Origin: Axinella damicornis
Taxonomy: Eukaryota; Porifera; Demospongiae; Axinellida; Axinellidae
Direction of reading: 5' to 3'
Assembly (NCBI GenBank): GCA_963931865.1
Contig: OZ007509.1
Coordinates: 2,123,554 to 2,187,553 of the forward strand
DNA: 64,000 nucleotides
Part shown: positions 5,723-62,124 of the stretch, piece after piece
Numbering within the stretch: the first letter of the stretch is position 1
How the letters are laid out: the number at the start of each line of letters is the position of its first letter
Program-made: the position numbers and the translations under genes
Notes under the pieces: generated by a model
The model's database searches: none
What the model saw: only the letters and a program-made list of their open reading frames with translations
What the model was told of the DNA's origin: nothing

Positions 5723-8022
5723 GAGGCTACCTACATCTAGCAGCTACACTTGCTCAGATTCAGATAGAGCTAGCCAGTGCACCTCACTTTCTATACACAC
5801 TGCAAAAACGGTGTAGTTGTTTTGATTGCTTGGTGGTTACTACAGTTGCACCATGTTTGAACATGCAGGAACCCAGTTGTCTGCATTTCAGTAGCATCCT
5901 ACATGGAGTGGCCATTCCAGTAGTATCCTACACAAACATGGTTTATGTAGCGTACTACTGGAATGCTCAGTTTATGTAGGATGCTATCGTCCTCCACATT
6001 CTAATAGAAAGTATTGCCTCGATCCTGCTTGTCCAAACATGGTGCAGTTATAGTAACCACCAAGCAGTCAAAGTAACTACTTCGTTTTTGCAGTGCAGGG
6101 ATAGTGCACCTGTTATCTTCCATAGGGAGCGACTTCAGCCAGACAATAATCTCCACCTCCTTAACTTACTGTCTGACTTGTGGGCTTCCTCAGTGGCTGA
6201 AGCTGGCAATAATTAATTATTCTGCTTACGCATGTGAGAAGTGGGGTTAAGCAATCAGTTTTGTACGCCTGTCCAATGAATCTTGCGACATAAACATAAA
6301 GTACTTAAACAAAAGCAAATAACAAGGAACTGTTCTATATGTGTACCTGACAAGATGCTTTGTTTCGCTGTTATTGAAGCTATTTCCTATTATTATTGGT
6401 CCCACCTCTTTAGGATCACAGAGTCCTTTTCAAAAAACTTACTGCAGTTGGAAACTTCATGTTTCGAGATGACCGCTAGAAAATGCACTTATATACTTCT
6501 CAGATGTCGTTACTATTGTTTCGGCTGTTTTTTTTCAGCTTTAATTGTAAAATTTGGCTCCACCTCTTCATGTCGGTGTATATACGGCAGTTGGTCACTC
6601 CCACACCTCGGATACGAGCACACACGAACACTGTATACGCAATAGCATGTGTTCGCCCCCACATAATCATGCATCCATGCATCGGTAGTACTGGAAACGG
6701 ACAGAGAGATGCCTCGGTGATTGTAGCTGCACACTATCCTTCCACATGGGGTATGTGTTCTATGAACATCTCTAGTTTTACAAGTAGCTTTGCTCACTTT
6801 GTTTGCTCAGCTATGCCCCCTCATTCGCCTATGTGAGGCAGTCCAACATTTGTGCAGAGGTCTAACGAACTCTTGCTTCCGCTCCCCGATCACTTCTGCT
6901 TCAGCTACTACTGCTCTTCGGTTGTGTCTGCTTGCAGCTCCAGCCACTCTGAAAGGTTCCAGCCCCTGCCCAACGTTATTGAGCATTCTTCATGGAGGTT
7001 GCGAGGTTTGGAGGTTGTAGTGAAGTACCAGGGTTGTCCCTCAAACATCCCACTTCAATTACACACACACAGTTGGAATCTTAATGTACTGACTGAGGTG
7101 GAGCCAAGGTCAATTGTCTGCCAATAAGGAAGCGCACCATAGGACAAAAGAAAACTATGGTCTTCATTAGCCCCCCACTAAAACATTAGTGCATGACTGT
7201 CATTCCCGTACTAATTGAGTGGAAACCATACTCCTGACAAGCCAGTGAATCATGACCCAGGTCTTTCTCTTGCCCCTTAACAAGAGATAAATCTCTTGGA
7301 TGCATCAGTAGACTGCATACATGAGCTTAATTGTATGTATTTACATTTTGTTCCGATAAACACACCACTCACATTAGCAATGGTGGTAACAACAGAATGC
7401 AGTACAGTACTAGTGGGAGTACCAACACAGGCATTGCGTTGTGAAATTCACTCATAGAATAGATACCGTACAGTATGTTTATTTTGTGGGAGAAAAGTCA
7501 CATTTCTGTGGTGATTCACAGTTTTATCTGAGAAAATCATTCGTGGAGATCGGTACATATATACTTATTTATTCACATTCAACACACTGATTCTGTGTTA
7601 CCAAAGCTGGATGGTCCACTGTCGGTGGTAGTACCTGTATTGAGTATTCAAACTACCATTTGCTCGTATATTGGCTGCTCAATACCGGTGTGGAGAACTG
7701 CAACTTCGTGAAAGTTTCCTTCACCAAATGTAGTTTTCTCCCACGAAAGAACCCGCTATATGGTAATCGATTCTACTATCTATGCTTATAGTGAGTACAG
7801 GCATGTCCAAACTTTTTGACTGGGAGAATGCATTGCAAGAGCACGAAAGATAAGAGTTGCAAGTGATTTATGGCACAATGTACGGATGCCAGATATAGGG
7901 AAAATTTACAGCAAACTCATCTACGTATGTGGGGCTTTCTCATACTCGCCCCAATTAGCACTACCATAAGGTGAGAACAAATGTGAAAAATGATCTGTTA
8001 GGGACAGCCCATATTTGGTGGC
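5723..8022. other. no recognisable gene; one MITE
   Basis: Open frames here are short and none resembles a known family. Apart from the inverted-repeat element at 5799-6098 I see only unique DNA. It may hold 5' exons or the promoter of the ROCO gene. Confidence 0.5.
5799..6098. mobile_element. MITE with about 62-bp terminal inverted repeats
   Basis: The left end (CACTGCAAAAACG..., through TGGTGGTTACTACAGTTGCA) returns inverted at 6031-6098 (GTTATAGTAACCACCAAGCA ... TTTTTGCAGTG) with a few mismatches. A second inner inverted pair flanks the centre (CATTCCAGTAGTATCCTAC and its approximate complement). It has no coding capacity and is unrelated to the TAGCC family. Confidence 0.8.
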
Positions 8023-9800: not shown

Positions 9801-10385
9801 TACTGACTGAACAGCTGTCCCTCCTATCACAATTGCAATTACAACTGAAGTCAAGACTTTGACTGACTGCTTTCCCATTGGCTGGACCAATTTTCAGCAT
9901 TCTGCACACCACTGTGTCTACTACTATCCCGTTTACACTACCTAAAAAGAACTGTGCTGGCACTGTTTAGTATGGTTCAGCATGGTTATTGATTTGCTGT
10001 GTAAACACTCAAACTACATTATTAGTTTCTCCTCATCACCCCCGCATGCACTCTGGAATACATTTGACTTTGTTGAATGCAACCATTGTTCAAATTGAGC
10101 CGTCACAGAATTACTAGAAATAACTCCGCCCACTTCTGTGTGTGCTGTGAATATGCTTAACACCCACTTGACTTGAAGCCATAGTAGGTACAAGTGTAAC
10201 AGTACTGTTGTCACGGCAACAGGCTTCCCCTTCCATTATGAGATTGGGGACACTAGGAGGTCATTACTCACCACAGTTGCCATGGGAATGCATACTAAGT
10301 AGGTTCAATCTTGGTGCATAATTATATGATCCATTCCTTCTCACAACTACTGATTTCCCTTCACAGGTAGTACCTACCAGCAGCC

Positions 10386-30788: not shown

Positions 30789-31788
30789 ACACACACACAC
30801 GTTCACAGTGATGGAAAGGAATGTATGCGCATCCTAAAGGAAGACTTCGGCATTACTGCCTCCGACACAGACTGTGAGACAGTGAGGAGGGTGTGTGAGG
30901 CGGTCTCCACACGGGCAGCCCGACTGGCAGCAGCTGGAATTGTAGCTCTGGTCAGAAAGATCAAGAAACTGGAGAAGTGCACAGTGGCTGTCGATGGCTC
31001 TCTCTATAAGCTGCATCCAAAGTTCCGTGGAAGGTGTGGATGGATAGTTGTGAGTGTGGGAGGCTGAGAGAGTTGGGACAGTTAAACGTGGACAGCTTAC
31101 TATCATTCCATGCCCACATATTACTCAAAACAACGTGCTGTCTAGCAGGTGTCCAGGTTGCTAGCTACTATAGATCTAGTCTATCGAACTAGACCAATTT
31201 TCTCTTGCTCAGGAAGTTGGGGGTGGGGCGGCCTTCCCTCCGCCCCACCCCCAACTTCCTGAGCGAGAGAAAATTCGATAGACTACAGATCAGGCTCATG
31301 CAGCAATGCTGAAGTGTCTTCCTAGTCTAGCACCACTTGCTATGATATCTTTCTGCTCCATCAGCCTATACACAGAACCTTACACTATACATCATTATGG
31401 TTCGGATTATCTCAGGTGATTCAGTGGAAATGACAGTTGTTTATTAACATACTATGAGAGTATGATACTATACCTGTTACATGAGATGCCACTAGACGGC
31501 AGAGCCATCCTTGCAGCCCTAATATGGAGGCTTGATGCAGTGTGTAGGCACAGTATGAATGCACTGAGTAGACTGCACATAGCTACCTAGCTAGCCTATA
31601 GTCGAGGCTGTTGAGCTGCAGTGATGTAGCTGTTACTATCTGCCTCCTCTAGGATGCAAGGGGCAATGGATGAACTGGCTCCTGGTAACCACATTCTGAT
31701 GACTCCGTCTGAGGATGGCTCAGGGCGGGGGGCGGCCATTGTGGCAGCTGTTGCATCAAGACTGAGGGACGCGGGGGAATTCAAGTGA
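27634..31788 (+). CDS. hexokinase, single catalytic half (about 50 kDa)
   Basis: Seven exons (27634-27648, 28496-28712, 29118-29410, 29843-30135, 30385-30543, 30809-31033, 31653-31788) join in phase to 445 residues. The first coding exon is only 15 nt (MGTTV). Motifs: phosphate-1 loop DLGGSNFR (66-73), sugar-binding [10 protein letters not shown] (126-135), catalytic Asp in LLNDTTAT (D187), [10 protein letters not shown] (209-218), [14 protein letters not shown], and a C-terminal nucleotide motif [10 protein letters not shown]. It phosphorylates glucose and related hexoses with ATP, the first step of glycolysis. The length is that of one half of vertebrate hexokinase I, with no fused second half and no obvious N-terminal mitochondrial-binding helix. 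Two introns carry long microsatellites and G/C runs close to splice sites. A dead copy of the last exon lies at 39685-39812. Confidence 0.94.
28265..28318. mobile_element. TAGCC-family palindromic MITE
   Basis: 54-bp hairpin (TAGCCTCGTACCCAGGCC ... GCGTACGAGGCTA) in hexokinase intron 1. The flanking 9-bp repeat is GTCTGAAAG (28256-28264 and 28319-28327). Confidence 0.9.
29594..29677. mobile_element. TAGCC-family MITE
   Basis: Ends TAGCCTCGTTCTAAGTC and CTAGGAACGAGGTTA, with inner arms of CCCCCTGC/GCAAGGGGG type. Flanks CACAAGTGC and CACAAGTGT suggest a slightly decayed 9-bp target duplication. In the hexokinase intron 29411-29842. Confidence 0.75.
30157..30305. repeat. TG microsatellite ending in 26 G
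   Basis: (TG)n with CATG interruptions, then 30280-30305 all G. It begins about 20 bases after a hexokinase splice donor. Confidence 0.9.
30748..30800. repeat. C run (27) followed by AC microsatellite
   Basis: C run 30748-30774, then (AC)n to 30800, ending eight bases before the hexokinase exon at 30809. It takes the place of a normal pyrimidine tract. Confidence 0.9.
31178..31289. repeat. 112-bp inverted repeat in the last hexokinase intron
   Basis: The left arm contains TTTTCTCTTGCTCAGGAAGT followed by TGGGGGTGGGGCGG. The right arm is the near-exact complement, with an 8-base CCTTCCCT centre. The outer TCTATCGA/TCGATAGA pairs too. Possibly an old MITE of another family. Confidence 0.75.
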
Positions 31789-31977
31789 CCACAACCACAA
31801 ACTGCAGCTAGAAATTAATTTTAATTCCGAGTTTAGCCTAGCAAGAATTGTGTGATACAATGACATTGTAGTCCCTAGTTTTATTTCATTGGTATATTTT
31901 TGCCAGATTATGTTGAAGCAAATTCATGACTTTGGGGGGCAACCCCACACACCATTTGCACATCTCATGAGAAGAAA

Positions 31978-34659
31978 ATGGCTGACAGTGGGACAAGCAT
32001 GAGTGCAAGGAAGAGCAGCAGCTGGATTTTGTTCATCTGTGGAGATTTGAAGAATGTGCTTGCTGTTCAAGTCCACAATGTTGAGGTAGCTATAGCTACC
32101 TATAATTAAAGATTGTACTGAAATGGTAGGCTGCCCAGGGACATTGGTCTTTGTCTCTCACATGTGCTAGGTTGCATGATAGTATAATTTGCTTGGATAG
32201 TGCAATAGATATGTAGATTGTGTACATGCAGCGGTATAGCTGCATGTATTTTGTTCACCAGGCCAATTGCTACCTGCAGTATGGAACCCTCTGTAGGAGA
32301 GCACAGTTGGAGACCTGAAGTCACTCATCCAAGAGAGGTCAGGGATCCCAGCTGCTGAGCAGAAGTTGTCCGTTGGTGAGGTTCTGCTCAGCAGAGATGC
32401 ACTCAAACTTCAAGACATTCAACCGGAGCTGAAGGATGGGTCCTCTGTTACTCTAGCGCATGTCCGAGTGTGGCATCTGACCATCCAGGACAGGAGCAGC
32501 AACAAGAGCATCAGCCTAAGAGTCCCTAATCCACAGGTGGGTGATATGGCTATGCAGTCTTATATGTAGGTCCAATTAGTGAATAATTATTCTGCTTAAT
32601 TCTCATTGACCACACACATTCCCAGTGTATTACAATCCGCCAGTTGAAGTCCTTGGTCCAAGCTGCTGCAAATGTTGCTTCTTGTGAGCAGAAGCTGATC
32701 CACATGGAGGGAGGAACGTTACAGTTGCTGCATGACGAAGATGAGCTGGATGGGAGAGAGCTATATCTCCATGATTACCCAAGTGTGGATGATGATTCCA
32801 CCATCGTTTTGATGCATTTGCCTACCTGGAAAATACACGTGGAGTATCCACAGGGAAAGAGCTTCACTCTCCAAATTAGCAACCCAGAGGTGATGAGTGA
32901 GTACATTTCCATCATTGTTATTAATTGTATTCGTGAGGCCTCTGCAAGTGGGAATCTATAGCTCAGTATATCTGTAGTATCCAAGAACCTACTAGCTGTT
33001 TGGTCAGTATATCTGTATTATACAAGAACAGACATACTAGCTATAACTAGCTACATACATGTGTAAGGGTGTTGGAGTTTAGTGTAAAAACTCATAAAAG
33101 GCTGAGAACTATAAATCTAACAGCATATTATAGCTAGCTATACCCTTGCTTAGAGAACAATACTGTCCATGCATGATGTTTATTGTGAACAACTGGCCTC
33201 AATCGAGTTCATTAATTCCCATGCATATGCTATTGTTGAAGTAGTCAAATGAAAGCTACATGTGGTGAATGAGGCTAGCAAGCTTAAAGTGTGTTCATAT
33301 TTCTTGCAGACTACTCCTATGTCAGTACTCAAAACTCTCATCCAAGAGAGGACTTGGCTGCTACCCCGTCAACAAGTCCTGATGCAGTACAGAAATGCCC
33401 TTTGTCTGAATTATCGTGATGACCAGATGTGCCTGTATGTCACAGGTCTGGAAGATGAAGCCACTATCTGGCTTAAAAGGTCGTCTGGATGGCATATTTA
33501 CATCCGGATGGTGGATGGGAGCACTACCACGATCACCTTGGATAATCCTAAGGTTTGGCTGAGGCTGCAAGCGCGTTGAATTAGTACTAAGGAAGGAGTC
33601 GAAGGACTTCTTTGGTACATAATTCAGCATGCATGTGATGTATGCATGGTGCAGGTATACAAATTGCTCCCCCCCTATGCCCACACAACTCACGTATGTA
33701 CTCTGGATTCATTTATCCTCATTCCCAGTCCTATAATCTATCAGTTGTTGTTTGACAACAATCAGCTATATATTGAAGCAGAAGAAAAATATTGTAACGA
33801 GGACTGGTGTCTGGTTAATCAATACCCAATGATGATAGCTATAGTGCATAACTGGTTATGTTCCACAATTCTCTTCATGCATTGTAAATGTTGAACATGT
33901 ACAGGGAATTTCAGTGCCAGACCTGAAGGTCTTGATTGAGAAGAGTACTAAGATTCCTGCTTACGAGCAACGGCTGTCCTACAACCACACCATTCTTGAG
34001 GATATCTATCTTGACAGTCAGGAGCAAGTGAAGCAGAGGTATCTGAGGCATTACCTTGGTGTTGGAGATGAGTCTGTGCTCTGCCTGGTGAGGCTGACTG
34101 GGACAAACTTCAAAGTGTCTCTGCCCAACCCCACTCTACTCAGCTGCAATAATTGCGTCTTTTACATGAATTTTGTTTCTAATGTAAGTCAGATTGAGTG
34201 TTTGTTTAAGCTGTTAACACTAAAGCATTAGCTGAATCCAATTGTTAACCCTTTCATCTCCTTCCATCATGATACTAGCTATATATTCATATATAGGCTT
34301 TCTAATGAACACTTGACAGTTTATTGATTGAGAAAGTCAACTACTAGATTTTTGTCCATGTATAAGTCAGTGTGATGGGCAGAGTTAATATCTCTCAACT
34401 GTTTGAGAATACAAATTTGTCCCTGTAGCTACCTGTGAAAGTGTTAGCTAACCCATAGCCAAGTTACAAGCAACAAAATACACATTTCTACCCACAGGAC
34501 GTCTCATTGCAGGCATTCAATGATCTACTCCTGCAGAAAACACATCATCAGTATAAGAGTTTACATGCCGGTTACGGAGCTTGGAACCTGTCCATCATTA
34601 AGGAATATAATTGGTGTCGTTATGAACATAGGAATGGTACTAGTTTTAACCTTTCATGA
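31978..34659 (+). CDS. multi-ubiquitin-like-domain protein, gene 1
   Basis: Six exons, all joined in phase 0: 31978-32085, 32297-32536, 32626-32889, 33310-33552, 33905-34183, 34498-34659; 431 residues. The protein is a chain of about five ubiquitin-like folds. In each, a beta-1/beta-2 hairpin (for example WILFICGDLKNVLAVQV) precedes an intron, then helix 1 and the rest follow (TVGDLKSLIQERSGIPAAEQ, compare ubiquitin [20 protein letters not shown]). Domain starts: about residues 15, 102, 192, 271 and 360. The last is weakly conserved. No domain ends in Gly-Gly, so conjugation or polyubiquitin-style processing is unlikely. No signal peptide or membrane segment is seen. Function unknown; perhaps a ubiquitin-mimicking adaptor. 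It starts 189 bp after hexokinase. The start at MADSGTSMS has an alternative Met at position 8. Confidence 0.8.
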
Positions 34660-34759
34660 TAATGAGTAGCTACATTCTAATCCTGCTAGTGTCATAGCTA
34701 CCAGTACGAACTGCATTTGTGGAGATTTTGAACGATCGTTGAATTCTTGTAGCTTATAG

Positions 34760-34801
34760 CATAGATAATAGAATACTCACGTGAGTATTCTATTATCTAT
34801 G
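34760..34801. mobile_element. 42-bp palindrome, CATAGATAATA family
   Basis: Perfect palindrome with arms CATAGATAATAGAATACTCAC and the 7-bp flanking repeat CTTATAG (34753-34759 and 34802-34808). Confidence 0.8.
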
Positions 34802-34985
34802 CTTATAGCTAGCTAGCTATAATATATCTAAAGACAATAACTTGTGGATTTCATGTATGGAGTAGTTACACAGGCTGCAAGTTTAAATTTATGGTATGCA
34901 CAATGTGCTTTGATCTTTTGAACTTAGCTGATTATTCGGGTCTCTAAAATCCAATAGACACTTCATCATACCCACAGACTAAGCT

Positions 34986-35188
34986 GGTTATTGCACTCAA
35001 GCCGGTCTCTTAGGCTAGCTGTGCAGAGACCTTCGGGATGCAACTATAATCACCTCAGGCTTTGCCCTCGGTGACTATGTAGCTAGGTAGCTACGTAGCT
35101 AGCTACCTACATAGTCACCAAGCTATAGCTAGCACATAATTAATCCCTCAGGTTGCTAAGAGGCATACATCTACTGAGTGCAATAACC
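34986..35188. mobile_element. MITE-like inverted repeat
   Basis: Ends GGTTATTGCACTCA / TGAGTGCAATAACC, with a central palindrome GGTGACTATGTAGCTAGGTA / complement at about 35069-35119. No coding capacity. Confidence 0.7.
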
Positions 35189-35355
35189 TATATAGCTGCA
35201 CGTACACACAGCAGGTGAACACCCATCTGCCATATTATGGTTTCTGTGGCTGAATTCATGACTTTGGGGGCATGCAGCCCCATACCATAATCATTTATAT
35301 GCCATGCATGAATGAAGAAAATGGCTGACAGTAGCTACGTAGTAGGCAGACAAGC

Positions 35356-38300
35356 ATGAGTGCGAGGAAGAGCAGCAGCTGGATTTTGTTCATCTGTGGA
35401 GATTTGGGGAATGTGCTTGCTGTTCAAGTCGACAATGTTGAGGTCATGACGTTCATATGTAGAGCATGACTGCATGTGCATCATAGCTGCTAGCTAGCTA
35501 TAGCTATAGGCATGCCATGGAAATGACCTGGAGATGACCTTATAATTGCACGTAGGTTGGAGATTAAACTACTGAATTCATAATATCACTCAACCCTTTA
35601 GGGGCTTGAGGGGGGGGGGGGGGGGGGGTTATGTATTTACCATGGAGAAGTGGTGGGCTGCTCAAGGGCATTGGGTTAGTAGATGTAGCTATACGTAGCA
35701 ATTGCTACAGACATTTAGCTAACTAAATCACATGCAGTAGCTATAACAGCTGCGGTTCACCAGGCCAATAATTCCTCTGTAGGAGAGCACGGTTGGAGAC
35801 TTGAAGTCACTCATCCAAGAGAGGTCAGGGATCCCAGCTGCTGAGCAGAAGTTGTCCGTTGGGGAGGTTCTGCTCAGTAGAGATGCACTCAAACTTCAAG
35901 ATGTCCAACCGGAGCTGAAGGATGGGTCCTCTGTTACTCTTGTGCATGTCCAAGTGTGGCATCTGACCATCCAGGACAGGAGCAGCAACAAGAGCATCAG
36001 CCTAAAGGTTGCATACCCCCAGGTAGCTATGAAGAAACAGTTACCTTGCGTAGTTACTTATGTACCAGGATTACTGTGCTGGTGTGGTGGTATCAGTATA
36101 TAACCTATCCTCATTCCCATGCAGTAGCTGCTATAGTGGAAAGGCCTGCATGATATACATGTAACATGGGGCCCGGGACAGAAAGATGGAGATGGTTTAT
36201 TTGAGACCTTTGTCAGACGGTGTGCGCACAAAATTATTGTCCTTTTTGTTTGGCTTTGGATTTCACAGGATGCTACCATCACACACTTGAAGCACTTGGT
36301 CCAAGTTGCCACAAAAGTTGTCCCTTATGAGCAGAAGCTGATCCACATGGAGGAAGGCACATTACAGTTGCTGCTTGAGGAAGAAGAGCCAGGTCGGAGA
36401 GAGATTCACCTCCACGACTATCCAGGTCTTGGTGATGGCTCCACCATCATTTTGATGCACCAGCCTACTTGGAAACTATATGTAGAGTATCCACAGGGGA
36501 AGAGCTTCGCCCTCCAAGTTAGCAACCCCGAGGTGTGTACATTTCCATCAGTATTGTAGAAACCTTAATGCATAGTGGCCATAGCTCACATTACTGCACA
36601 TGCATACCGTGTTGCTTGCTTGATCCAAAATCAGAATGCATGTAAAACTGCAAGATATCAAGTCACGTGATATTTTGCAGTTTTGCATTCTGATTTTGGT
36701 TCAAGCAAGTAGCTAGCTAACGTGAAAAACACAGTAGCATAATTATTCTGAACAGCTAAGCCCCACGCTCCACCTAGTCTCACAGGCCAGCCCATTTCCA
36801 CACTGGCAGGGAGGGAGGGAAGTGCAGAAGTGGGCTGCAGCTAGCCCGCGAGTTATCAAGCTTTTGTTGAAGTATGCAAATGAAATGGTGGGCAAGGCTA
36901 GTAAACCTTATTCCTTTGCAGACTACCCCTGTGTCATCACTGAAAAATTTGATCCAAGAGAGAACTGGGCTGCTTCCCCGCAAGCAAGCCCTGAATCGCT
37001 ACCGTAGGAAAAGGTTTGTAAAATCCAATTCCTGGCACTTCCAAGACCTCTACTTCCCACTGGATGACGACCAGATGATGTTGTGTCAGTGTCCTCTGGA
37101 AGACAAGGCCACTATCAGGCTTGAGAGGTTCTCCGGATGGCATATTTACATCCGGATGGTGGATGGGAGCACTACCATGATCACCTTAGATAATCCTGAG
37201 GTATGGTATAGTTCTAGTGTTGTTCTCAGGCTCTCCTGCGCGATGGAAAAAATTCGGGAAAAAAGGGTATTTGGCACATGAGAAATGTCACAGGTAGACA
37301 GAACTTAATTGTGTGTGGGCTCTATCTACCCTGACGTCACTCACATGATCCCAGGCCGCCCCCCACTTTTTCTGTACTGTAAGCGATGAAAAGCTGAGCG
37401 GGTGCCTGGGAATGAGGCTAGTATACAGTTCATTGGCTGCAGGGTTTGGTATAATGGCTCCCTCTAGATCAGAGTCTGTTTCAGCATATGTGCTGAAGTA
37501 CTTCCTGTCCTACCTTACTAGGTTTTGTTGAACAACAATATCTCAATGAGGATCAGAACCAGGGATAGTGTTAGTGCTGTGATATTGCTCCTGGAATCAA
37601 CACTGATTATTGGGGGTCGAATAATTGCCAATTATCCGATTATTGGTCAAAATTTGTGGAGGCATAATATATGTATGTAGTGATGCTTCGTTGAGTTCAA
37701 AATACGTACATACCACCAAGTATTACAAACATACACATACGGTGAGTTCCTACGATATAATAGTACACCATGAATACACAATAGTATAGTTTACTACAAG
37801 TTTATATTGCATATCACCATTTTCTGTTCCCTTTATTGTGCTCGCTAACATACTCACAAGCAGATTTCAATAATTGATATCTTAATTTTACCACCAATTA
37901 TTGATCTAAGATCTTTATATTGATCAATTATTCAATTAATTGATTATTGGTCACAGCTCTAGATAGTGTTAGCTGGTAGTTAACTATGGATGTGAAGCAT
38001 TATGGTAGCCAGTGCACACATCTTACTAGGTATGGAAATATCATGTTGAAAGTGTTCAAAATAGAGTATTGTACATGTACAGGAGGTTTCGGTGCCAGAC
38101 TTGAAGGTCTTGATTGAGAAGACTACAAAGATTCCTGCTTACGAGCAACGGCTGTCCTACAACCACACCATTCTTGAGGATATCTATCTTGACAGTCAGG
38201 AGCAAGTGAAGCCGATGTATCTGAAGCATTACCTTGGTGTTGGAGACGAGTCTGTGCTCTGCCTGGTGAGGCTGACCGGGAAGAACTTCAAAGTAACTCT

Positions 38301-38793
38301 ACCTGGTTGCAGTTGGGCCTTTTACATGAATTTTGTTTCTAATGTAAGTCAGATTGAGTGTTTTAAAAGCGTTAGCTGAATTTAGGAATACCGTTAAGCA
38401 GTTGAGAGATATAATGCCTCACATCACACTAACTTAGCTATACGTGGACAAAAATCTACTAGTTGACACAAACTATCAAGTGTTCATTAGAAAGCCTAGT
38501 ATGAAGATGCTGAAGTGACAGCTCTGTCCCTATCCTGTGACCCTCAAGTAATATTGCTAAAACAACAATATACATTTCTACAGGACGTCTCATTAGAGGA
38601 ACTCAAGGATCTACTCCTGCAGAAAATACATCATCAGTATAACAGATTTCTAATCACATACAGTATGTCAGGTGGTTACACTACATCATGTGATTACTGC
38701 TTGTCTGGACCCGGCAACTATAATCGTTGGATAGAAAGTAATTGGTCTTCTATTGCTGAGAATGGCACGGTGCTGAAACTTCTTGATTCATAA
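35356..38793 (+). CDS. multi-ubiquitin-like-domain protein, gene 2
   Basis: Exons 35356-35442, 35783-36022, 36269-36532, 36922-37200, 38083-38343, 38584-38793, all phase 0; 446 residues. Same five-domain layout as gene 1. The upstream ATG used in gene 1 is followed here by an in-frame stop, so the start is the inner Met (MSARKSSSW). Exon 2 is nearly identical to gene 1, whereas exons 3 and 4 differ clearly (DATITHLKHLVQVATKVV against CITIRQLKSLVQAAANVA). Exon 4 is 12 codons longer, with a basic RYRRKRF insert. The first donor is GTCATG, a weak site shared with gene 4. The end carries a longer fifth domain (SGPGNYNRWIESNWSS). No Gly-Gly end. Function unknown. Confidence 0.78.
36612..36711. repeat. 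100-bp palindrome in intron 3 of gene 2
   Basis: GCTTGCTTGATCCAAAATCA ... and its near-complement TGATTTTGGTTCAAGCAAG around a TCACGTGA centre. A degraded copy lies at about 47070-47165 in gene 4, so the insertion predates the large duplication. Confidence 0.75.
37349..37422. mobile_element. TAGCC-family MITE in gene 2, intron 4
   Basis: Arms CCCAGGCCGCCCCCCACTTT and GGGTGCCTGGGAATGAGGCTA, with GCGATGAAAAGCTGAGCG inside. The left tip is worn. The same insertion is present in gene 4 at about 47788-47860. Confidence 0.65.
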
Positions 38794-38949
38794 GTTAGTT
38801 CTGCATTATTGTACATGTAGTCTTGTATCATAATATGGAATCTGTTAGTAATTTTGCAGGACAGCAACTGTCAGTTGTGGGACTCTTGTATGTGAGTACG
38901 TCCAGTATGGTTATACATTTTCTACACATGTATATACACACTCATGTGT

Positions 38950-38982
38950 GAGCATACACACACACATCATGCACACACACAT

Positions 38983-39052
<70 letters not shown>

Positions 39053-39068
39053 CACACACATAAACACA

Positions 39069-39112
<44 letters not shown>
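38950..39112. repeat. AC microsatellite
   Basis: Long (AC)n with AACAC interruptions downstream of gene 2. The equivalent tract after gene 4 is at 49311-49361. Confidence 0.9.
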
Positions 39113-39114
<2 letters not shown>

Positions 39115-39306
39115 TGCTTGGCATGCACACACACTCCTTGCACACACCATAAACACAAATGTGTGGTATCAGTTGGGAATTCTACAAAAGGAGGTTAGAG
39201 TAGTGATGCAGCTGTACCTTGTTAGTAAGTTGTTACATATCTGCATGGTGTCCTAATGTGTTAAGAGAGTTTCAGGCAGTCTACATAACATCGTACGTAC
39301 ACACTA

Positions 39307-39684
39307 TCACTTTGGTATGTAGCTGGTGGGGGAGGTGGGCCTGTGCTGGATAACGTCCACGAGGGTAGGGGTGGAGATGCGGTTCCTGTTGAGCTTCCGG
39401 AGCCCTCTGGCTCCAAGAGGAGCTGTGATGGCCTCCATGGTGCGCTGGTGGTAGAGCTTCCTCTTCCAGCTGAGGGCCAGGGCGGCCGCCTCTGTCTGCT
39501 CACTGTCCTCGGGTGGGTTCAGACCCTGAGAGTGTGGGGTGGAAGGGGAGAAAGCTAATAGGTATGAAGTGTATTTCCTTCTAGAGGACCCCTTTACACG
39601 TATGTCTGACAATGAGGAGGCCGTGCATGTGGTTATTCACCTTCATGCAAGCAGATTCAGCGGCCTGAACAGTCTTGATGACTG
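39307..39684 (-). pseudogene. truncated copy of the vinculin 3' end
   Basis: 39307-39525 copies the last vinculin exon (49566-49784), including the acceptor and the stop, with few changes. 39641-39684 copies the 3' part of the penultimate exon and then stops abruptly, continuing into hexokinase sequence. With no promoter or upstream exons it cannot make vinculin. It is the right end of the left duplication copy. Confidence 0.9.
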
Positions 39685-39812
39685 GGGCAATGAATGAGCT
39701 GGCTCCCGGTAACCACATTCTCATGACTCCGTCTGAGGATGGCTCAGGGCGGGGGGCGGCCATTGTGGCAGCTGTTGCATCAAGACTGAGGGACGCGGGG
39801 GAATTCAAGTGA
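39685..39812 (+). pseudogene. orphan copy of the last hexokinase exon
   Basis: 128 bp matching 31661-31788 almost base for base, including the [10 protein letters not shown] motif and the TGA. It lacks the first eight bases of the exon and its splice acceptor. It is joined directly to a vinculin fragment. Confidence 0.92.
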
Positions 39813-39979
39813 CCACAACCACAACTGCAGCTAGAAATTTTAATTCCGAGTTTAGCCTAGCAAGAATTGTGTGATACAATGACATTGTAGTCCCTAGTTT
39901 TATTTCTTATTTTTGCCAGATTATGTTGAAGCAAATTCATGACTTTGGGGGCAACCCCACACACTCTCATGAGAAGAAA

Positions 39980-42900
39980 ATGGCTGACAGTGGGACAAGC
40001 ATGAGTGTGAGGAAGGGCAGCAGCTGGATTTTGTTCATCTGTGGAGATTTGAAGAATGTGCTTGCTGTTCAAGTCAACAATGTCGAGGTAGCTAGCTAGC
40101 TAGCCTAGTAATTTCACAAAGAACAGCTGTGTACATGCATAGAGATGACTGCCTCGAACTCTTACCCGGGCTTGGTTTGCATGCACTATAAATTGAGCCA
40201 CTGAATGCTAATATTGTACAAATGGTGGGCTGCCCAGGGACATTGGTCTTTGTCTCTCACATGTGCTAGGTTACATGATTGTAGTATAATTATGCTTATA
40301 GCTATTGCTAGCCTCGTTCCCAGGCACTCAGTATAATTGAGCATGCGCCTGGGAACAAGGCTGAGCTAGATAATGCACCAGTAGCTGCTACATGTATTTT
40401 GTTCACGAGGCCAATTGCTATGGTATGAAACCCTCTGTAGGAGAGCACGGTTGGAGACCTGAAGTCACTCATCCAAGAGAGGTCAGGGATCCCAGCTGCT
40501 GAGCAGAAGTTGTTCCTCGGAAAGTTACTGATCAGCAGAGATGCACTCAAACTTCAAGATGTCCAACCGGAGCTGAAGGATGGGTCCTCTGTCACTCTTG
40601 CGCATGTCCAAGTGTGGCATCTGACCATCCAGGACAGGAGCAACAACAAGAGCATCAGCCTAAGAGTCCCAAATCCACAGGTGGGTGATATATTTGCAGT
40701 CTATACGCTTATCCAATTTGTGAATAGTTATTCTGCTTCGATTCATATACACCACACACTCTCAGTGTGTTACCATCCGCCAGTTGAAGTCCTTGGTCCA
40801 AGCTGCTGCAAATGTTGCCTCTTGTGAGCAGAAGCTGATCCTCATGGAGGGAGGAACATTGCAGTTGCTGCATGACGAAGCAGAACTGTGCGAATATTGG
40901 AAGGAGCTATACCTCCATGATTACCCAAGTCTCGGTGATGGTTCTACCATCATTTTGATGCGTTTGTGTACCTGGAAGATAGAAGTGCAGTATTCACAGG
41001 GATTGAACTTCACCCTCCAAATTAGCAACCCAGAGGTATGTAATTTCTATTCCCTGGGCCAATATAAATAAGGAAAAGTCTAAAACATAATTAGTTTTGT
41101 TTGTGAGCCTCGTGTGCATGTTTGGGGTCTGGGAATGAGACTTGGGATGCCCAAGAATCTAAGCTATTTGATTATGTAATTCAAAGTATAGATACCGTAT
41201 ATAGTATTCGCGTTATAACATCTATGACCCCAGTAGGGTCACATCGACCCCCCATGACTAGGGCACATGCATGCAGGTTAATGTATTTAGCAGCTGTGTG
41301 TGTGTGTGTGGGTGCTTTGTGTGTGGCAAGCAGCTGTGCTTATAATAATTTGTGTTTAAGTAGCTAGTATTCATGAAGCAAATTTAATAATAACTTTGCA
41401 TGCAGTGGCATTATAAATACTGGTATCCCAGCATGTACCCTACAGCAATGTCATGCAGGCTGCCCCTGCACGATAACTGAGCTATCTCATGCTTCAAGGT
41501 GCTCCATAATTATCTGTGGAACATAATATTGCTATTTAGCTAAGACAATGCATGACGTTGTGACAGTTAGTCTCAGCCAAGGTCATTCCCATGGCATACA
41601 TACATTTTGCTTTTGTTGGAGTATGCGCATGTGACAATCGAGAGTAGAAATCAGTCCTTATATTCCATATGTACATGTACCTTCAACTTGTAAAGGAAGT
41701 TGACAAGGTTTCAGCAAGTGGCTCATAGAGATCAGAGATCACTAGAGTGGCAAATTTAAGTTTGAGATTGATTAGTCTTTGTTCCCAGATCAAATCACAG
41801 TGCGTATATCACTTCCACGCTGGGTCTGGGACCGAGACTATAGGTAGACTAATAATTAGGACTGATATCTACTCTTGACTGTTGCAAATTAAAGCTATGT
41901 TGTACTGTAGTGTGTAGGAGGTTGAAAGGCACAGGCTGTGGTTTATATTCCGAAGCCATGCAGCCGTGCAACAGCTGTGGGTTTATAGAAATTTGAATTA
42001 GAGCATGATGACTCAGCGTTTATGGAAATTAGACCATGGCTCAGCGCATTCTGGATTGAGTTGTTGGAGCGTGCTAATCCAGGTAGCTATAGTACAAACC
42101 AGTTAGACTAAGCCCTTTTGTGGATTATAGGAAATCCCACTCAAGGCTGTTCATTTAGACCACTCCGCTGCGCAAGACCACTCGGCTGCGCCTCGTGCAT
42201 GGTCTATATAAACAGCCTCTCGTGGTTATTTCCCATAAACCACTCAAGGCCATAGTCTAACTATAACGTGGATGAGACTGGTGATTTTGTATGTGTTCAT
42301 TTTTCTTGCAGACTACTCCTATGTCAGTACTCAAAACTCTCATCCAAGAGAGGACTGGGCTTCTACCCCATCAGCAAGAACTGACTACACCTACTTCTGC
42401 AGGTTATCATGACGACCAAATGTGCCTATATCTTCTGAAAGACAAGGCCACCATCCGGCTTGTTAAGAAGATAGGGTTCTCCGGATGGCACATTTACATC
42501 CGGATGGTGGATGGGAGCACTACCACGATCACCTTAGATCATCCTAAGGTATGGTATAGTTCACAGGCTGCATGGGATTGAATTGGTATTAGCTATGGCT
42601 AGGACTCCTTTTCCGCGTTCAGCATGCATGCATGTGGTGTATGGTGCAGGCATAGCCTGCCTCCTTATGCCCCACACAGTTCAACTCATGCTTGGCGAAC
42701 TTGTCCTACTTACATTTTATTGCTGAGCGTCTCAGCATGAGGCAACTAATCATGCAGTGTAGTCACATGGCATTTGTATACCCGGGTAATTATGTTGTAT
42801 ATGAAGCTAATTAATTATTCATGAGTTAATTAACTAATATCTCTATTATTTCCACATGATTACTCCCACAGTGCACGTAAACAGTTGCTCTCGAAATGCT

Positions 42901-43731
42901 ACAGCAATATGCCGGTGCCCTGACTGTCCCAGACTTGCAGCACTATCCGCGTTAAGAGTATATACGCCAGCTCATGGTCAACCTAGCTCCTGTCTCTGTC
43001 ATCAGATCGAATGCACACCGTATGCGGCGTGTACGTGTGTGAGGATCTAGGACTCCGGACACACGCGTCATTATTCAGAAAAGCGAGAAGGCAGCTGCCT
43101 CCTCTGCCTCAATGCTAGCTATGCCCTTGGCTTACTTTGAGCATAAGTAGGCAAATTTTGGGCATAATTTTAGGTACAATTTTGAGCATGCATAATGCAA
43201 TAGCGTAATGGGTGAAAATTATCCACCCAACCCTTGTCTAAGATCCATACTGCACTCACTGACATGGACGTGCGTCGGTATGAACACGTGCCAGAGCCCG
43301 TGTACACCCGTACTTTTAGTTCCTGAACGTAACTGAAGTTGTGCACATATATGTATATTATATAATACTAGTGCATACGTGAATGCACGCAGAAGAGCCT
43401 CGCGGGAAGCGAGTTAGTAGTTGCTGTAAGACCAACTATCTGGCAATCCCAGGAATAGAGATTGTCATGTTTATGTATTCACAGCCTGGTACATGGTAAG
43501 TATATTCATGTGACTCATCTGTGGCCGGGTAAGTATATTCACGACACCCATAATCATTTTTGGAGCTACAACTCTGTATTATAAGTAGCAGCAGACACCA
43601 TAATATTGTAAGGACGACATTCGCTGCGTTAGTGCCCACGCGCACTTGTGAGAGTTCACCCCGCGCACTTGCCTTGCACAGTGACAGTGCGTATGAGTGA
43701 CGTCCTTATTGCATTCCTGAGCGTTACAAAC

Positions 43732-43766
<35 letters not shown>

Positions 43767-45490
43767 CGCTAGCTCAGATTCGACTGCCCTGCTGCACGAT
43801 TAGTTGCCTCGCTTCCCGCTCGGCAATTATACATACAAAACAATGCTAGCTCAATATCAGACCGCCGTTGTCACGATTAGTTGCCTCACTACGCTCGGCA
43901 ATTTAAAGGGCCATGGAATGAGTAAACCCACAGGTGACTAATTGTATTCATGACCCTAATTAGGGAGTCAATATCAAAATAATTCATTTAGTACAATATT
44001 ACAGCATTACTCAAAATTGCAGTTTCTCAAAAAAAAACAACCGAAACTTCAGGACTGAGATGGAAGCTAGAAATATAGTTGCAGACATCATGACCACTGT
44101 TTTGGCTGGTTTTAGCTACTTCTGAGCTAACATTTGACTCAACCTACAAAGGCAATGACATAAGCTTCATCATGTATATGATCATACTCAGAAAAGTGTG
44201 CATGTTGGCTGCCAGTTCGGTGTGGATCCTAGGCAAGATAGAAAGCATTTGTGTGCCGGGTAAGTGTTTATATGAACACACTGTAGTAACGGATTAGGGT
44301 GAAGTGATCAATGGATATACAAGTGTATTTAGCACCTACCTATGAGGACATTAGAATGTAGCTGAAGTGGTAGGTGGGTGCTAGCTATAGATGCACAGTA
44401 TAAAGTTTTTACACATCACAATGAAATAATGCCAATACAGAACATTACAGTGCCAAACTTGAAGGTCTTGATAGAGAAGAGTACTGACATTCCTGCTTAC
44501 GAGCAACGACTGTCCCACAATCACACCATTCTTGAGGATATCTATTTTGATATTTGGGAGAGAATGAAGCCGAGGTATCTGTGGCACTATCTTGGTGTTG
44601 GAGACGAGTCTGTGCTCTGCCTGGTGAGGCTGACTGGGACAAACCTCGTGTCTCTGCCCAAGGCCAACTCCTCTCAATACAACTACAATTGTATCTTTTA
44701 CATGAATTTTGTTTCTAATGTAAGTCAGATTGAGTGTTTGTTTAAGCTGTAAACACACTAAAGCATTAGTTGAATCCAGGCTTGCTAATTTTTACCGGTA
44801 AGAATTCCCTAGAAGTTGAGAGATATTAACATCTCTCAATTAAGCCCATTACATGACTTATACATGGCAAAAAAATACTAGTTGACCTATCAAGTGTTCA
44901 CTAGAAAGCCAAGTATGAAGACACTGAAGTGACAGCTCTATCCTTATACCTGTGAAAGAGTGGACCACGATGAGCCAGAATTTCTCTATAATTCATTTTC
45001 AATAACTGCAACGTTTCGACCCAACTAGCAGTTGGGTCCAAACGTATTGAAAATTATTATTATTATTGCAAAATCCTGGCTCATTGTGGTGCACTCTTTA
45101 ATTTATGCACTAGAATTCAACACTAGTGGACCCAATTGTGAAGTATGTCGTTGTAGCCGGCACTTGACTCTGTAAACATAATTTATAGCTATGTACCTGT
45201 GAAAGTGATAATCATACTAAAGTAACCAACTGGCTAGCTAATATTGAATGCACTACTAAAACAACTACTACAATACACATTCCTACCCACAGCTGCAGGA
45301 CGTCTCATTGCAGACATTCAATGACCTACTCCTGCAGAAAACACACCGTCAATGCACGAGCTTACAGGCCATGGGACCGGATGCAGGATTGTGTGCTCTG
45401 ATCGCTAACATTCCTATGGCAGAATATTATTGGTCTTGTTTTAAACCTAAGCTTAAGAATGGTACTTGTGTTTACCTTCATTACAAGTAG
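39980..45490 (+). CDS. multi-ubiquitin-like-domain protein, gene 3
   Basis: Exons 39980-40087, 40441-40680, 40766-41035, 42312-42548, 44441-44719, 45299-45490, all phase 0; 441 residues. Sister of gene 1: same first exon (MADSGTSMSVRKGSSW), same CVTIRQLKSLVQAAANVA in exon 3 and the short form of exon 4. It is the most altered member: exon 2 begins LFLGKLLISRDA, exon 3 carries ELCEYWKELY, and the fifth domain differs at its end. Introns 3 and 4 have grown to 1.3 and 1.9 kb. All splice sites are GT-AG and no stop interrupts the frame, so it looks functional, though long introns and drift make it the likeliest to be failing. Exon 6 could start six bases earlier. Confidence 0.72.
40309..40364. 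mobile_element. TAGCC-family MITE in gene 3, intron 1
   Basis: TAGCCTCGTTCCCAGGCACT and GCGCCTGGGAACAAGGCTG form the arms. It is absent from intron 1 of gene 1, so it inserted after the large duplication. Confidence 0.75.
42131..42232. mobile_element. MITE-like inverted repeat in gene 3, intron 3
   Basis: GGAAATCCCACTCAAGGCTG ... pairs with CAGCCTCTCGTGGTTATTTCC around a centre with two CCACTCxGCTGCGC repeats. Not found in gene 1. Confidence 0.65.
42549..44440. other. 1.9-kb intron 4 of gene 3, foreign-looking
   Basis: About five times longer than the same intron in gene 1. It contains a TA microsatellite (43733-43767) and repeated GTTGCCTCxxTxCxCGCTCGG motifs. No coding frame resembles a known family. 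Confidence 0.5.
44955..45106. mobile_element. MITE-like inverted repeat in gene 3, intron 5
   Basis: AAGAGTGGACCACGATGAGC / complement at about 45078-45106, with inner CAACTAGCAGTTG. No coding capacity; absent from gene 1. Confidence 0.7.
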
Positions 45491-45804
45491 CTAATCTAAT
45501 TCTGCCAGTGTCATATAGCTACCAATACAAATACTGATTTGTGGAGATTTTGAATTCTTGTAGCTAGTTAGCTAGCTACATAGCTAGCTGGCTAAGCTAC
45601 CTAGCTAGCTATAGCTAAAGACAATCTATAGCTAGCTAGCTAACTTTTGTGGGCTTCGTATATGGAGTAGCTAGCCAAGTGCAACACATGTGAAAACCCA
45701 TCATATAAATTCATGACCCGTTTAACTTGGGGCAGGCCCACATGTACACCATAACAAAATGGCTGCCAGTAGCTACTAGCTAGCTATATAGTATACAGAC
45801 AAGC
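45491..45804. other. spacer between genes 3 and 4
   Basis: Mostly CTAGCTAG low-complexity DNA plus the duplicated leader of gene 4 (AATTCATGACCCGTTTAACT). No gene. Confidence 0.5.
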
Positions 45805-48800
45805 ATGAGCGTGAGGAAGAGCTGCTGGATTTTGTTCATCTGTGGAGATTTGGGGAATGTGCTTGCTGTTCAAGTCAACAATGTTGAGGTCATGAAGTTC
45901 ATACAGCTAGCTGGCTATAGCTATATAAAGCTAAATTGCATGCTTGTTTTGCAGAACATGACCGCATATAGCTAGCTAGCTAGGCATGCCATGGAGATGA
46001 CTTTATAGAATCCTTAGCTTAGCTACGTAGGTTGGAGATAAACTATAGTACGGCTGAATTCAAGTGTAGCTATAGCTACCCTTTACTTCAGGATATGGTA
46101 ACTTAGCTACATATTTTGCACATCAGGGCTCAATTGGGCTTTGTCTCCCATGTAGCTAGCTGTAGTGTACATGTACTCACAAGTTAGTAGAGGTAGCTAT
46201 ATAGATGTACGTGGCAATTGCTACATACAGATAGTAATCATAAGATTATTATGTAGCTGAGTACATGTATAACAGCTGTGTTGACTTCATTCACTAGGCC
46301 AATTGCTATGATAATGGAACCCTCTGTAGGAGAGCACGGTTGGAGACTTGAAGTCACTCATCCAAGAGAGGTCAGGGATCCCAGCTGCTGAGCAGAAGTT
46401 GTTGGTTGGTGAGGTTCTGCTCAGCAGAGATGCACTCAAACTTCAAGATGTCCAACCGGAGCTGAAGGATGGGTCCTCTGTCACTCTTGTGCATGTCCAA
46501 GTGTGGCATCTGACCATCCTGGACAGGAGCAGCAACAAGAGCATTAGCGTAAAGGTTGCATATCCCCAGGTAGCTATGCATGTCATTTTAAGAACAGTGA
46601 CTTGCCTTGCGTAGCTAGTTACTAGCTGTACCATGCGCAGGATTACTGTGCTGGTACAACATGGGGCCCAGGACAGAAAGATATCTATGATATGGATTAT
46701 CGAGACCTTTGTCAGTGTGCACACAAAATGAATGTTCTTTTTCATTGGCTTTGGATTTCACAGGATGCTACAATTACACACTTGAAGCACTTGGTCCAAG
46801 TTGCCACAAAAGTTGTCCCTTATGAGCAGAAGCTGATCCACATTTTTGGAGGCACATTGCAGTTGCTGCTTGAGGAAGGTCCAGAGCCAGTTCGGAGAGA
46901 GCTTCACCTTCACGACTATCCAGGTCTTGGTGATGGCTCCACCATCATTTTGATGCACCAGCCTACTTGGAAACTATATGTAGAGTATCCACAGGGGAAG
47001 AGCTTCGCCCTCCAAGTTAGCAACCCAGAGGTGTGTAACCTTAATGCATAGCCCACATTACTGCACATGCATGTTTGATCCAAAATCAGAATGCATATAC
47101 AACTGCAAGCTATCAAGTCATCCACTTTTGCTTTCTGATTTTGGTTCAAGAAAATGCAAGCAACCTGAAAACACAGTAGCATATTCTGAACAGCTAGGCT
47201 ATCCTTCCCCAGGCTCCACCTAGTTTCAGCCATGCAGCCCATTTCCACACAGGGAGGGATCCGGAGGGAAGTGCAGAAGTGGGCTGCAGCTAGCCGGCGA
47301 GTTTTCAAGCTTTTTTAAGTATGCAAGTGAAATGGTGTGCAAATGCTAGTAAACCATTAGACTTATTCCTTGCAGAGCACCCCTGTGTCATCACTGAAAA
47401 ATTTGATCCAAGAGAGAACTGGGCTGCTGCCACGCAAGCAAGCCCTGAATCGATACCGTAGGAAAAGGTTCGTGAAATCCAATTCCTGGCACTTTCAAGA
47501 CCTCTACTACCCACTGGATGACGACCAGATGATGTTGTGTCAGTGTCCTCTGGAAGACAAGGCCACAATCAGGCTTGAGAGGTTCCCTGGATGGCATATT
47601 TACATCCGGATGGTGGATGGGAGCACTACCACAATCACCTTAGATAATCCTGAGGTATGGTATAGTTCTAGTGTTTCAGGCTCTCCTGTGCAGTGAAAAC
47701 AATTCGGATATTTGGCACGTGAGAAGTGTCACAGGTAGAGAACTTAATTGTGTGTGGGCTCTATCTACCCTGACGTCACTCACATGATCCCAGGCTAGCC
47801 CCCACTTTTTCTGTACTGTAAGCGACGAAAAGCTGAGCGGGTGCCTGGGAATGAGGCTAGTATATAGTTCACACTGGCTGCAGGGTTTGGTATACATAAT
47901 GGCTCCCTCAGAGTCAGAGTCCGTTTCAGCATATGTGTGAAGTACAGTCCTCGATCCCTGTCCTATGCTACTAGGTTTTGTTGAACAACATAGATGAGGA
48001 AGAACCAGGGATAGTATTAGTTGATAGTTGATGTATAATATTTATGGACGTGAAGCATTATGGTAGCTAGTGCAAATACATCTTACTAGTTATTATTATG
48101 AATGGGTTGAAAGTGTTCACTGCAATGAAGTAGTACATTGTACATGCATGGTGCAGGAGGTTACGGTGCGAGACCTGAAGGTCTTGATAGAGAAGAGTAC
48201 TGACATTCCTGCTTATGAGCAACGGCTCTCCTACAACCACACCATTCTTGAGGATATCTATCTTGACAGTCAGGAGCAAGTGAAGCCGATGTATCTGAGG
48301 CATTACCTTGGTGTTGGAGATGAGTCTGTGCTCTGCCTGGTGAGGCTGACTGGGACAAACTTCATAGTGTCTCTGCCCAACCCCACTCAACTCAGCTGCA
48401 ATAAATGTGTCTTTTACATGAATTTAGTTTCTAATGTAAGTCAGATTGAGTGTTTGTTTAATAAGTTGTTAACACTAAAGCACTAATTTAGCTGACTCGA
48501 TCCAGGCATGCTTATTTTAACCTTTCACCGGTAAGAATTCCCTAGCAGTTGAGAGATATTAACACCTCTCAAGTAAGCCCATTACACTACTTATACATCT
48601 ACTAGCTGAACTGTTCATTAGAAAGCCTATAATATAGCTAGCTAGTATCACTGATACAAGAAACAAGGGGAAGTCATGCCAATAAGCACCACAGTCACAG
48701 CTGCGACCGCGTGTCAAAACTCTGACCTGCACGGCTTACCGTTGACCACACTGATTTTTGAGGCTTTGACCGTTGACTTTGCACTATATACGGAAGAATA

Positions 48801-49199
48801 CGTAGTGACTCCACCCCTTCCTTAGTATACAGGTTGACCATGCGCAGACACAGCTGTGACTATGGTGCTTATTGGCGTGACCTCCCCTTGAAGAAAATGA
48901 CATATCTGACCCTATCCTGTGAAAGTGTTAGCTAACCATAGATGAAGTTACAATTGTAATGCACTACTATAAATAACAACACACTTTTCTACCCACAGGA
49001 TGTCTCATTGCGGGCACTCAATGACCTACTCCTGCAGAGAACACATCATCAGTATATGAGAGTTAGGATCACATACAGTGTGTCAAGTGATTACCTTATT
49101 TTCAATTTGTCTAGACCCGGCGACTATAATACTTGGAATGAAAATGTTTGGTCTTCTATTACTAAGAATGGCACCACGCTGGACCTTTTTGATTCATAA
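45805..49199 (+). CDS. multi-ubiquitin-like-domain protein, gene 4
   Basis: Exons 45805-45888, 46330-46569, 46764-47030, 47376-47654, 48157-48435, 48999-49199, all phase 0; 449 residues. Sister of gene 2: inner start codon (MSVRKSCW), weak GTCATG first donor, DATITHLKHLVQVATKVV in exon 3, RYRRKRF insert in exon 4 and the longer fifth domain (SRPGDYNTWNENVWSS). Intron positions and several intronic insertions match gene 2, confirming that a pair was duplicated as a unit. No Gly-Gly C terminus. The gene ends 367 bp from the convergent vinculin gene. Confidence 0.78.
48664..48890. mobile_element. MITE in gene 4, intron 5
   Basis: Ends CAAGGGGAAGTCATGCCAAT / ATTGGCGTGACCTCCCCTTG extend about 40 bp inward, and AAGAAA flanks both sides. 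The inside (TATACGGAAGAATACGTAG) matches the element at 9392-9667. Absent from gene 2. Confidence 0.85.
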
Positions 49200-49310
49200 T
49201 TTTAATTTGTGTATCATAATTTTGCATGACAGCAACTTTCTGTGGCTCTTCTATGTGAGTACGTCCAGTATGGATGGTTATAAATTTTCTACACAGTCAT
49301 GTACACACTC

Positions 49311-49311
49311 A

Positions 49312-49361
<50 letters not shown>
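49311..49361. repeat. AC microsatellite
   Basis: (AC)n between gene 4 and vinculin, the counterpart of 38950-39112 but about one third as long. Confidence 0.9.
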
Positions 49362-49363
<2 letters not shown>

Positions 49364-49565
49364 AGTTGCTTGGTATGCACACACACACAAAGTTGCTTGG
49401 CATGCACACACACAACAATGCACGCACCATAAACACAAATGTGTGGTATCAGTTGGGGAGTCTACAAAAGGAGGTTAGAGTCGAAAACTGGTATACCTTG
49501 TTAGTAAGTTGTTACACCTGGTGTCAAGAGAGTTTCAGGCAGTCTACATAACATCGTACACACTA

Positions 49566-62124
<12,559 letters not shown>

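Follow-up and report, generated by a model that had tools for sequence, protein, structure and literature searches.

Few eukaryotic proteins are as conserved as ubiquitin. Polyubiquitin of the UBB/UBC type joins near-identical ubiquitin units head to tail, and ISG15 and FAT10 each comprise two ubiquitin-like units with a C-terminal Gly-Gly for conjugation. Mammalian OASL carries two tandem ubiquitin-like domains that lack the LRLRGG motif, bind RIG-I and are thought to mimic polyubiquitin (excerpts of PMC8764230), and USP7 has five tandem C-terminal ubiquitin-like domains that bind substrates (excerpts of PMC4624675). Kaur et al. (2021) list polyubiquitin among the fusions of the DEDD2-clade TRADD-N domain and report large TRADD-N expansions in marine animals, including sponges (excerpts of PMC8195603). 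Here, we describe four genes, g1 to g4, arranged in tandem on the plus strand of a 64,000-nucleotide stretch from the sponge Axinella damicornis (contig OZ007509.1, positions 2,123,554 to 2,187,553; hereafter the window). Their products are probably polyubiquitin-related, non-conjugating, multivalent ubiquitin-like binding scaffolds, a reading to which we give a probability of roughly 55%.

Ubiquitin-like architecture of g1 to g4

Gene models were placed by hand from the DNA alone and underlie all exon and intron counts. They comprise g1 (31978-34659; 431 amino acids [aa]), g2 (35356-38793; 446 aa), g3 (39980-45490; 441 aa) and g4 (45805-49199; 449 aa), each with six exons. An earlier sequence-only reading of the window had proposed six-exon genes within the same bounds, which the models match from the first ATG at 31978 to the last stop at 49199. 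All 24 exons have a length divisible by three and lack internal stops, and all 20 introns are GT-AG and in phase 0, with one intron per unit. With strands and helices named by alignment to ubiquitin, exons 2 to 5 each encode helix 1 to strand 5 of one unit followed by strands 1 and 2 of the next, and every unit is split by one intron at about the same place. Exons 2 to 5 are therefore symmetrical phase-0 modules that could duplicate without breaking the frame.

The same reading had assigned the domains to the ubiquitin family by pattern recognition, and Pfam bears this out: ubiquitin (PF00240) is the best family in all four proteins (E values of 1.2e-17 to 4.5e-24), scoring 63.8 to 84.4 bits against a cut-off of 25.4 in three to four separate stretches per protein. 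At the level of sequence, the similarity to ubiquitin exceeds chance. This profile search had been named beforehand as a possible refutation, and it placed the domains in no other family; g1 to g4 have no second domain above the Pfam cut-off. A ubiquitin profile based on the genome's polyubiquitin and its other poly-ubiquitin-like frames, with g1 to g4 left out, found units 1 to 4 in every case (16/16, 15 to 32 bits). Profile-profile comparison of unit 2 with ubiquitin units was weak (47 columns aligned, E = 0.0012, probability 19%). Against solved structures, a four-gene profile matched linear polyubiquitin best (E = 1.7e-31), followed by ISG15 (0.008), DSK2 (0.009) and a 2'-5' oligoadenylate synthase (OAS) chain (7sbi; 0.013). 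The predicted layout is one of four ubiquitin-like domains and a doubtful fifth.

Like polyubiquitin, g1 to g4 encode head-to-tail ubiquitin-family units; unlike polyubiquitin, the units are far from identical. Mean identity between different unit positions is 0.16 to 0.33, and units at the same position share mean identities of 0.92, 0.73, 0.69, 0.87 and 0.53 between genes (units 1 to 5). The strong divergence between units and the preservation of their order in all four genes, both claimed from sequence alone, are thus borne out, as is the absence of Gly-Gly, which occurs in the last ten residues of none of the 20 units, protein C-terminal ends included. Mean identity to ubiquitin is only 0.26 to 0.30. 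Read by eye, most neighboring units are joined by about two residues between strand 5 and the strand 1 that follows, where polyubiquitin has LRGG; the border between units 4 and 5 is longer, as is that between units 3 and 4 of g3. Residues were counted in an alignment of units 1 to 4 to ubiquitin (16 rows), in which positions after 50 are less surely aligned. Buried core positions are mostly hydrophobic, with the frequent exception of positions 1 and 50, and Gln41 is kept in 16/16 units. Lys48 and Lys63 are found in no unit, nor are Lys6, Lys29 and Lys33, with each unit carrying two to seven lysines at any position. Most of the Ile44 patch is changed, with Leu8 and His68 both at 0/16.

The missing Gly-Gly bears on whether g1 to g4 encode a covalent modifier like ISG15 or FAT10, or a precursor from which separate modifiers are released by cleavage. 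ISG15 and FAT10 resemble g1 to g4 in placing tandem ubiquitin-like units within one small protein, and the weak ISG15 profile match (E = 0.008) points the same way. However, the C-terminal Gly-Gly of these modifiers is missing from all four proteins, and no unit end carries it, the last unit included. We therefore reject the covalent modifier, which is the least credible of the explanations considered here.

Comparison with other tandem ubiquitin-like proteins

Mammalian OASL resembles g1 to g4 in its diverged tandem units, and the four-gene profile weakly matches the OAS chain 7sbi. However, the two units of OASL follow an OAS domain, which is missing from the four- to five-unit chains of g1 to g4; Pfam finds no OAS nucleotidyltransferase family in g1 to g4 at E values up to 1, and membership of the OASL family is therefore rejected. 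Likewise, the tandem units of USP7 are attached to TRAF and protease domains, whereas those of g1 to g4 stand alone. Pfam finds no TRAF, USP protease or USP7 C-terminal family in g1 to g4 (E up to 1), on which ground USP7 membership is rejected as well, and no USP7 chain is among the best 60 of 233 structure matches of the g1 to g4 profile. The UBA family, which would mark shuttles that join a ubiquitin-like domain to UBA such as DSK2 and Rad23, is also absent by Pfam at E values up to 1. The polyubiquitin-TRADD-N fusions are akin to g1 to g4 in that polyubiquitin has been recruited beyond ordinary protein tagging (excerpts of PMC8195603), but g1 to g4 have no death-fold or TRADD-N family by Pfam.

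The suggestion that no described family has this layout needs narrowing, since tandem diverged ubiquitin-like domains exist in USP7 (five), OASL (two) and other genes of this genome. On the gene family itself, no paper was found in the literature searched (most subscription journals lie outside it). Within that literature we found no precedent for a stand-alone chain of four to five diverged units, with an intron in each, amid longer chains.

Selection and duplication history

The ratio of nonsynonymous to synonymous substitution rates (dN/dS) is 0.42 to 0.53 overall across the six gene pairs. For exons 1 to 5 it is 0.42 for g1/g3, 0.27 for g2/g4 and 0.35 for g1/g2, and in none of these three pairs did any of 1000 bootstraps reach 1; these exons are under purifying selection. 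For exon 6, constraint is not clear: in the three pairs bootstrapped, dN/dS is 0.46, 1.32 and 0.80, and 29/999, 751/1000 and 243/1000 bootstraps, respectively, reach 1 or more. Single short exons scatter, and exon 1 (29 codons) rises to 1.19 in one pair.

These values bear on whether g1 to g4 are decaying polyubiquitin copies without function. The unclear constraint on exon 6 and the high value for exon 1 are what decay would leave behind, and the genome holds many stages of divergence from intact polyubiquitin. Set against this are the dN/dS of 0.27 to 0.42 over exons 1 to 5, the 24 exons without internal stops, the 20 GT-AG introns, and the existence elsewhere of exon 5 relatives at 60 to 89% identity. 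A pseudogene origin is largely refuted by dN/dS and the intact exons, although exon 6 alone would not reject it, and we consider it very improbable.

Protein identity is 79% between g1 and g3 and 87% between g2 and g4. Because these values exceed the 69 to 76% of the other pairs, the array probably arose by block duplication of a g1-g2-like pair. Repeated DNA agrees with this, since sequence from upstream of the array and from its vinculin-family neighbor recurs between the array genes. One duplication scar (31660-32107), 92% identical to 39684-40113, covers the DNA upstream of g1 and g3 together with their exon 1. Another (39025-39684) is 84% identical to 49303-49967, a stretch beside the 3' end of a minus-strand gene that is probably of the vinculin family.

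A non-conjugating scaffold or a ubiquitin mimic?

We propose that the ubiquitin fold serves in g1 to g4 as a stable module for new contacts rather than as a tag, because the core is largely kept, the tail and most of the recognition face are gone, and the genes are under purifying selection. Under this hypothesis, the units would fold as beta-grasp domains. Most unit borders, as aligned by eye, appear too short for an LRLRGG tail, and the protein would stay uncut and would not be coupled to targets. Instead, the chain could hold several partners through newly evolved surfaces on its units. Units 1 and 4, which differ least between the four genes, would provide the constant contacts; variable ones would come from exon 6 and from the loop of unit 3, where only g2 and g4 have a strongly basic insertion. 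By eye, this insertion in exon 4 of g2 (36922-37200) and g4 (47376-47654), absent from g1 and g3, resembles a possible nuclear localization signal. Descent from polyubiquitin itself is a guess, as is a setting in innate immunity or stress signaling. The latter is made by analogy, because OASL binds RIG-I and polyubiquitin is listed among the TRADD-N fusions.

Several observations weigh against the scaffold hypothesis. First, some ubiquitin-like contacts may remain: Lys27 is present in 16/16 units and Lys11 in 7/16, Ile44 is retained in 4/16 (unit 2 of all four genes), and Val70 in 7/16. Second, the claim of five ubiquitin-like domains stands for units 1 to 4 and is not confirmed for unit 5, which the independent ubiquitin profile found in none of the four genes (below 0 bits) and which hhalign compared with ubiquitin units at a probability of 0.1%. 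An earlier profile with g1 to g4 included gave the same split between units 1 to 4 and unit 5 but was circular. The first 16 residues of exon 6 nevertheless resemble the starts of exons 2 to 5, in register (2 to 81 of 5000 shuffles scored as high, in 16 non-independent comparisons), and unit 5 is best described as a fifth unit that has decayed or is unrecognizable. Third, predicted structural models of exon 5 alone (16 alignment rows) and of a diverged single-exon chain from elsewhere in the genome (L018; one sequence) were poor, with predicted local distance difference test scores of 50 and 31, respectively, and neither was used. Finally, no feature of the locus points to immunity, and the passages on mimicry by OASL fit a polyubiquitin mimic equally well (excerpts of PMC8764230).

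Under the alternative of a ubiquitin mimic or decoy, the chain would pass for linear polyubiquitin and be bound by ubiquitin receptors, deubiquitinases or microbial effectors, thereby activating, blocking or soaking them up. Linear polyubiquitin chains are the nearest solved structures by sequence (1.7e-31), the ubiquitin-like domains of OASL are themselves thought to be polyubiquitin mimics (excerpts of PMC8764230), and a chain lacking Gly-Gly should not be cut by deubiquitinases. Ile44 in unit 2 of all four genes and Val70 in seven of the 16 units would provide part of the usual binding face. Yet no unit keeps the whole patch, given the absence of Leu8 and His68 and an Ile44 count of 4/16, and mean identity to ubiquitin is just 0.26 to 0.30. 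An arms-race decoy would moreover be expected to have changing surfaces, whereas exons 1 to 5 are conserving. The mimic scaffold or decoy suggested by the sequence-only reading is thus weakened as an imitation of the usual ubiquitin face and keeps Ile44 of unit 2 and the Val70 residues in its favor. We regard it as unlikely, ranking second after the scaffold.

Poly-ubiquitin-like genes elsewhere in the genome

At least 150 ubiquitin-family matches, several of them clustered, were scored out of 315 candidates in the 226-megabase assembly. Frames of four or more ubiquitin-like units were present in 16 of the 20 stretches fetched, the longest having 25 units. When 20 frames with at least four units were ordered by mean identity to ubiquitin, an intact polyubiquitin of seven units came first (identity 0.99, Gly-Gly 7/7), followed by partly changed chains (0.65 to 0.78, Gly-Gly in one to eight units) and fully diverged chains (0.31 to 0.42, Gly-Gly in none or one). 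Last came g1 to g4 (0.26 to 0.30, no Gly-Gly). The genome therefore holds a continuum from intact polyubiquitin to diverged chains, with g1 to g4 at its most diverged end. They share with the other diverged chains tandem ubiquitin-family units, low mutual identity and the lack of Gly-Gly, but are not encoded in a single long exon; unbroken single-exon frames reach 2105 codons, compared to one intron per unit in g1 to g4. One giant chain has nine relatives in the protein collection (1159 to 3262 aa, 23 to 79% identity).

Several of these loci carry features of their own. Single-exon poly-ubiquitin-like frames of up to 25 units, the most diverged of which lack Gly-Gly, occur in L024 (977-7213), L022, L021, L011 and other stretches. 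Next to the 25-unit frame, a 227-aa frame on the minus strand of L024, from position 126, has by eye the look of a retroelement integrase fragment. In L027 (1416-3080), a single frame encodes three ubiquitin-like units together with a C-terminal RING finger, an arrangement like that of an E3. A frame of L009 (4667-6001) that adjoins a 15-unit poly-ubiquitin-like frame has a P-loop-like motif by eye and no Pfam family at an E value of 1e-4.

Abundance of this kind raises the possibility that g1 to g4 belong to a larger, diversifying poly-ubiquitin-like immune repertoire, whose tandem units turn over through gain and loss and diverge as modules for recognition or signaling. Such a repertoire would fit the 16 of 20 stretches with long frames, several of them clustered, the gene that joins three units to a RING finger, and the polyubiquitin-TRADD-N fusions and marine-animal TRADD-N expansions (excerpts of PMC8195603). 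But exons 1 to 5 are conserving rather than diversifying, and g1 to g4 have no second domain over the Pfam cut-off; we consider their membership in an immune repertoire quite unlikely, more so than the mimic.

Relatives outside the window

A search with exon 5 returned 12 of 22 candidates at E values of 1 or less. Two are the window's own copies and ten come from other ENA or JGI material, the latter 60 to 89% identical to the g4 exon (E values of 7e-50 to 5e-11). P0012, the nearest of them, may represent the same animal, as a second assembly or an allele. A tree was built from 13 of the 16 aligned rows, leaving out one fragment and the two copies from the window itself. In it, g2 pairs with P0014 with a support of 96/92 and stands separate from the other three array genes, and most other forks are weakly resolved. 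This grouping indicates that the g2 split predates separation from the source of P0014, whether that is a species or an allele. A whole-protein search with the four-gene alignment found nothing at an E value of 0.01 among the 7997 candidates sharing most words, in a collection where multi-exon genes are broken up and spliced relatives can be missed. This null says little, because the exon 5 relatives are short frames around single exons.

Exon coordinates and neighboring genes

In g1, exon 1 (31978-32085) encodes strands 1 and 2 of unit 1, and exon 2 (32297-32536) continues from helix 1 to strand 5 of unit 1 and into strands 1 and 2 of unit 2. Exons 3 (32626-32889), 4 (33310-33552) and 5 (33905-34183) each complete one unit and begin the next, up to the beginning of unit 5, and exon 6 (34498-34659) holds the remainder of the doubtful unit 5 and the stop. 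The corresponding six exons lie at 35356-35442, 35783-36022, 36269-36532, 36922-37200, 38083-38343 and 38584-38793 in g2; at 39980-40087, 40441-40680, 40766-41035, 42312-42548, 44441-44719 and 45299-45490 in g3; and at 45805-45888, 46330-46569, 46764-47030, 47376-47654, 48157-48435 and 48999-49199 in g4, all on the plus strand. The start ATG of g2 and g4 lies later than that of g1 and g3. Exons 2 to 5 of every gene are supported by the profile; Pfam adds to this for exon 2 of g1, outside relatives for exon 5 of g1, g3 and g4, and the tree for exon 5 of g2.

Upstream of the array lies a hexokinase gene. The probable vinculin-family gene on the minus strand matches PF01044 below cut-off in two exons (E = 1.3e-7 and 2.6e-4), and one vinculin exon compared with solved structures gave no match. 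Elsewhere in the window, a 728-aa frame on the minus strand (3557-5743) has a COR-A match just under the curated cut-off (33.7 against 35.3 bits) and is similar by eye to the L009 frame at 4667-6001. It adjoins a frame (2846-3232) that looks death-domain-like by eye and has no Pfam match. An 834-aa frame on the plus strand (10371-12875) combines a protein kinase, a filamin repeat and an NHL beta-propeller.

Implications

A broader interpretation, which we find doubtful and put forward only tentatively, is that polyubiquitin has become a large class of non-conjugating modular scaffolds in this animal. The chain would have grown to 25 diverged units in the single-exon genes, and in the g1 to g4 family the symmetrical phase-0 exons would allow units to be gained and lost with the frame intact; the fold would have been kept, the tail for tagging and much the larger part of the recognition face given up, and new surfaces evolved, possibly as an innate-immune or stress-signaling repertoire. 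If true, this lineage would be a natural experiment that separates the parts of ubiquitin serving its fold from those serving its function: chains would have been copied and diverged, keeping most of the buried core while losing Lys48 and Lys63, the tail used for tagging and the greater part of the recognition patch. Within it, g1 to g4 would offer a defined gene family in which to ask whether such chains act as signaling scaffolds in this animal.

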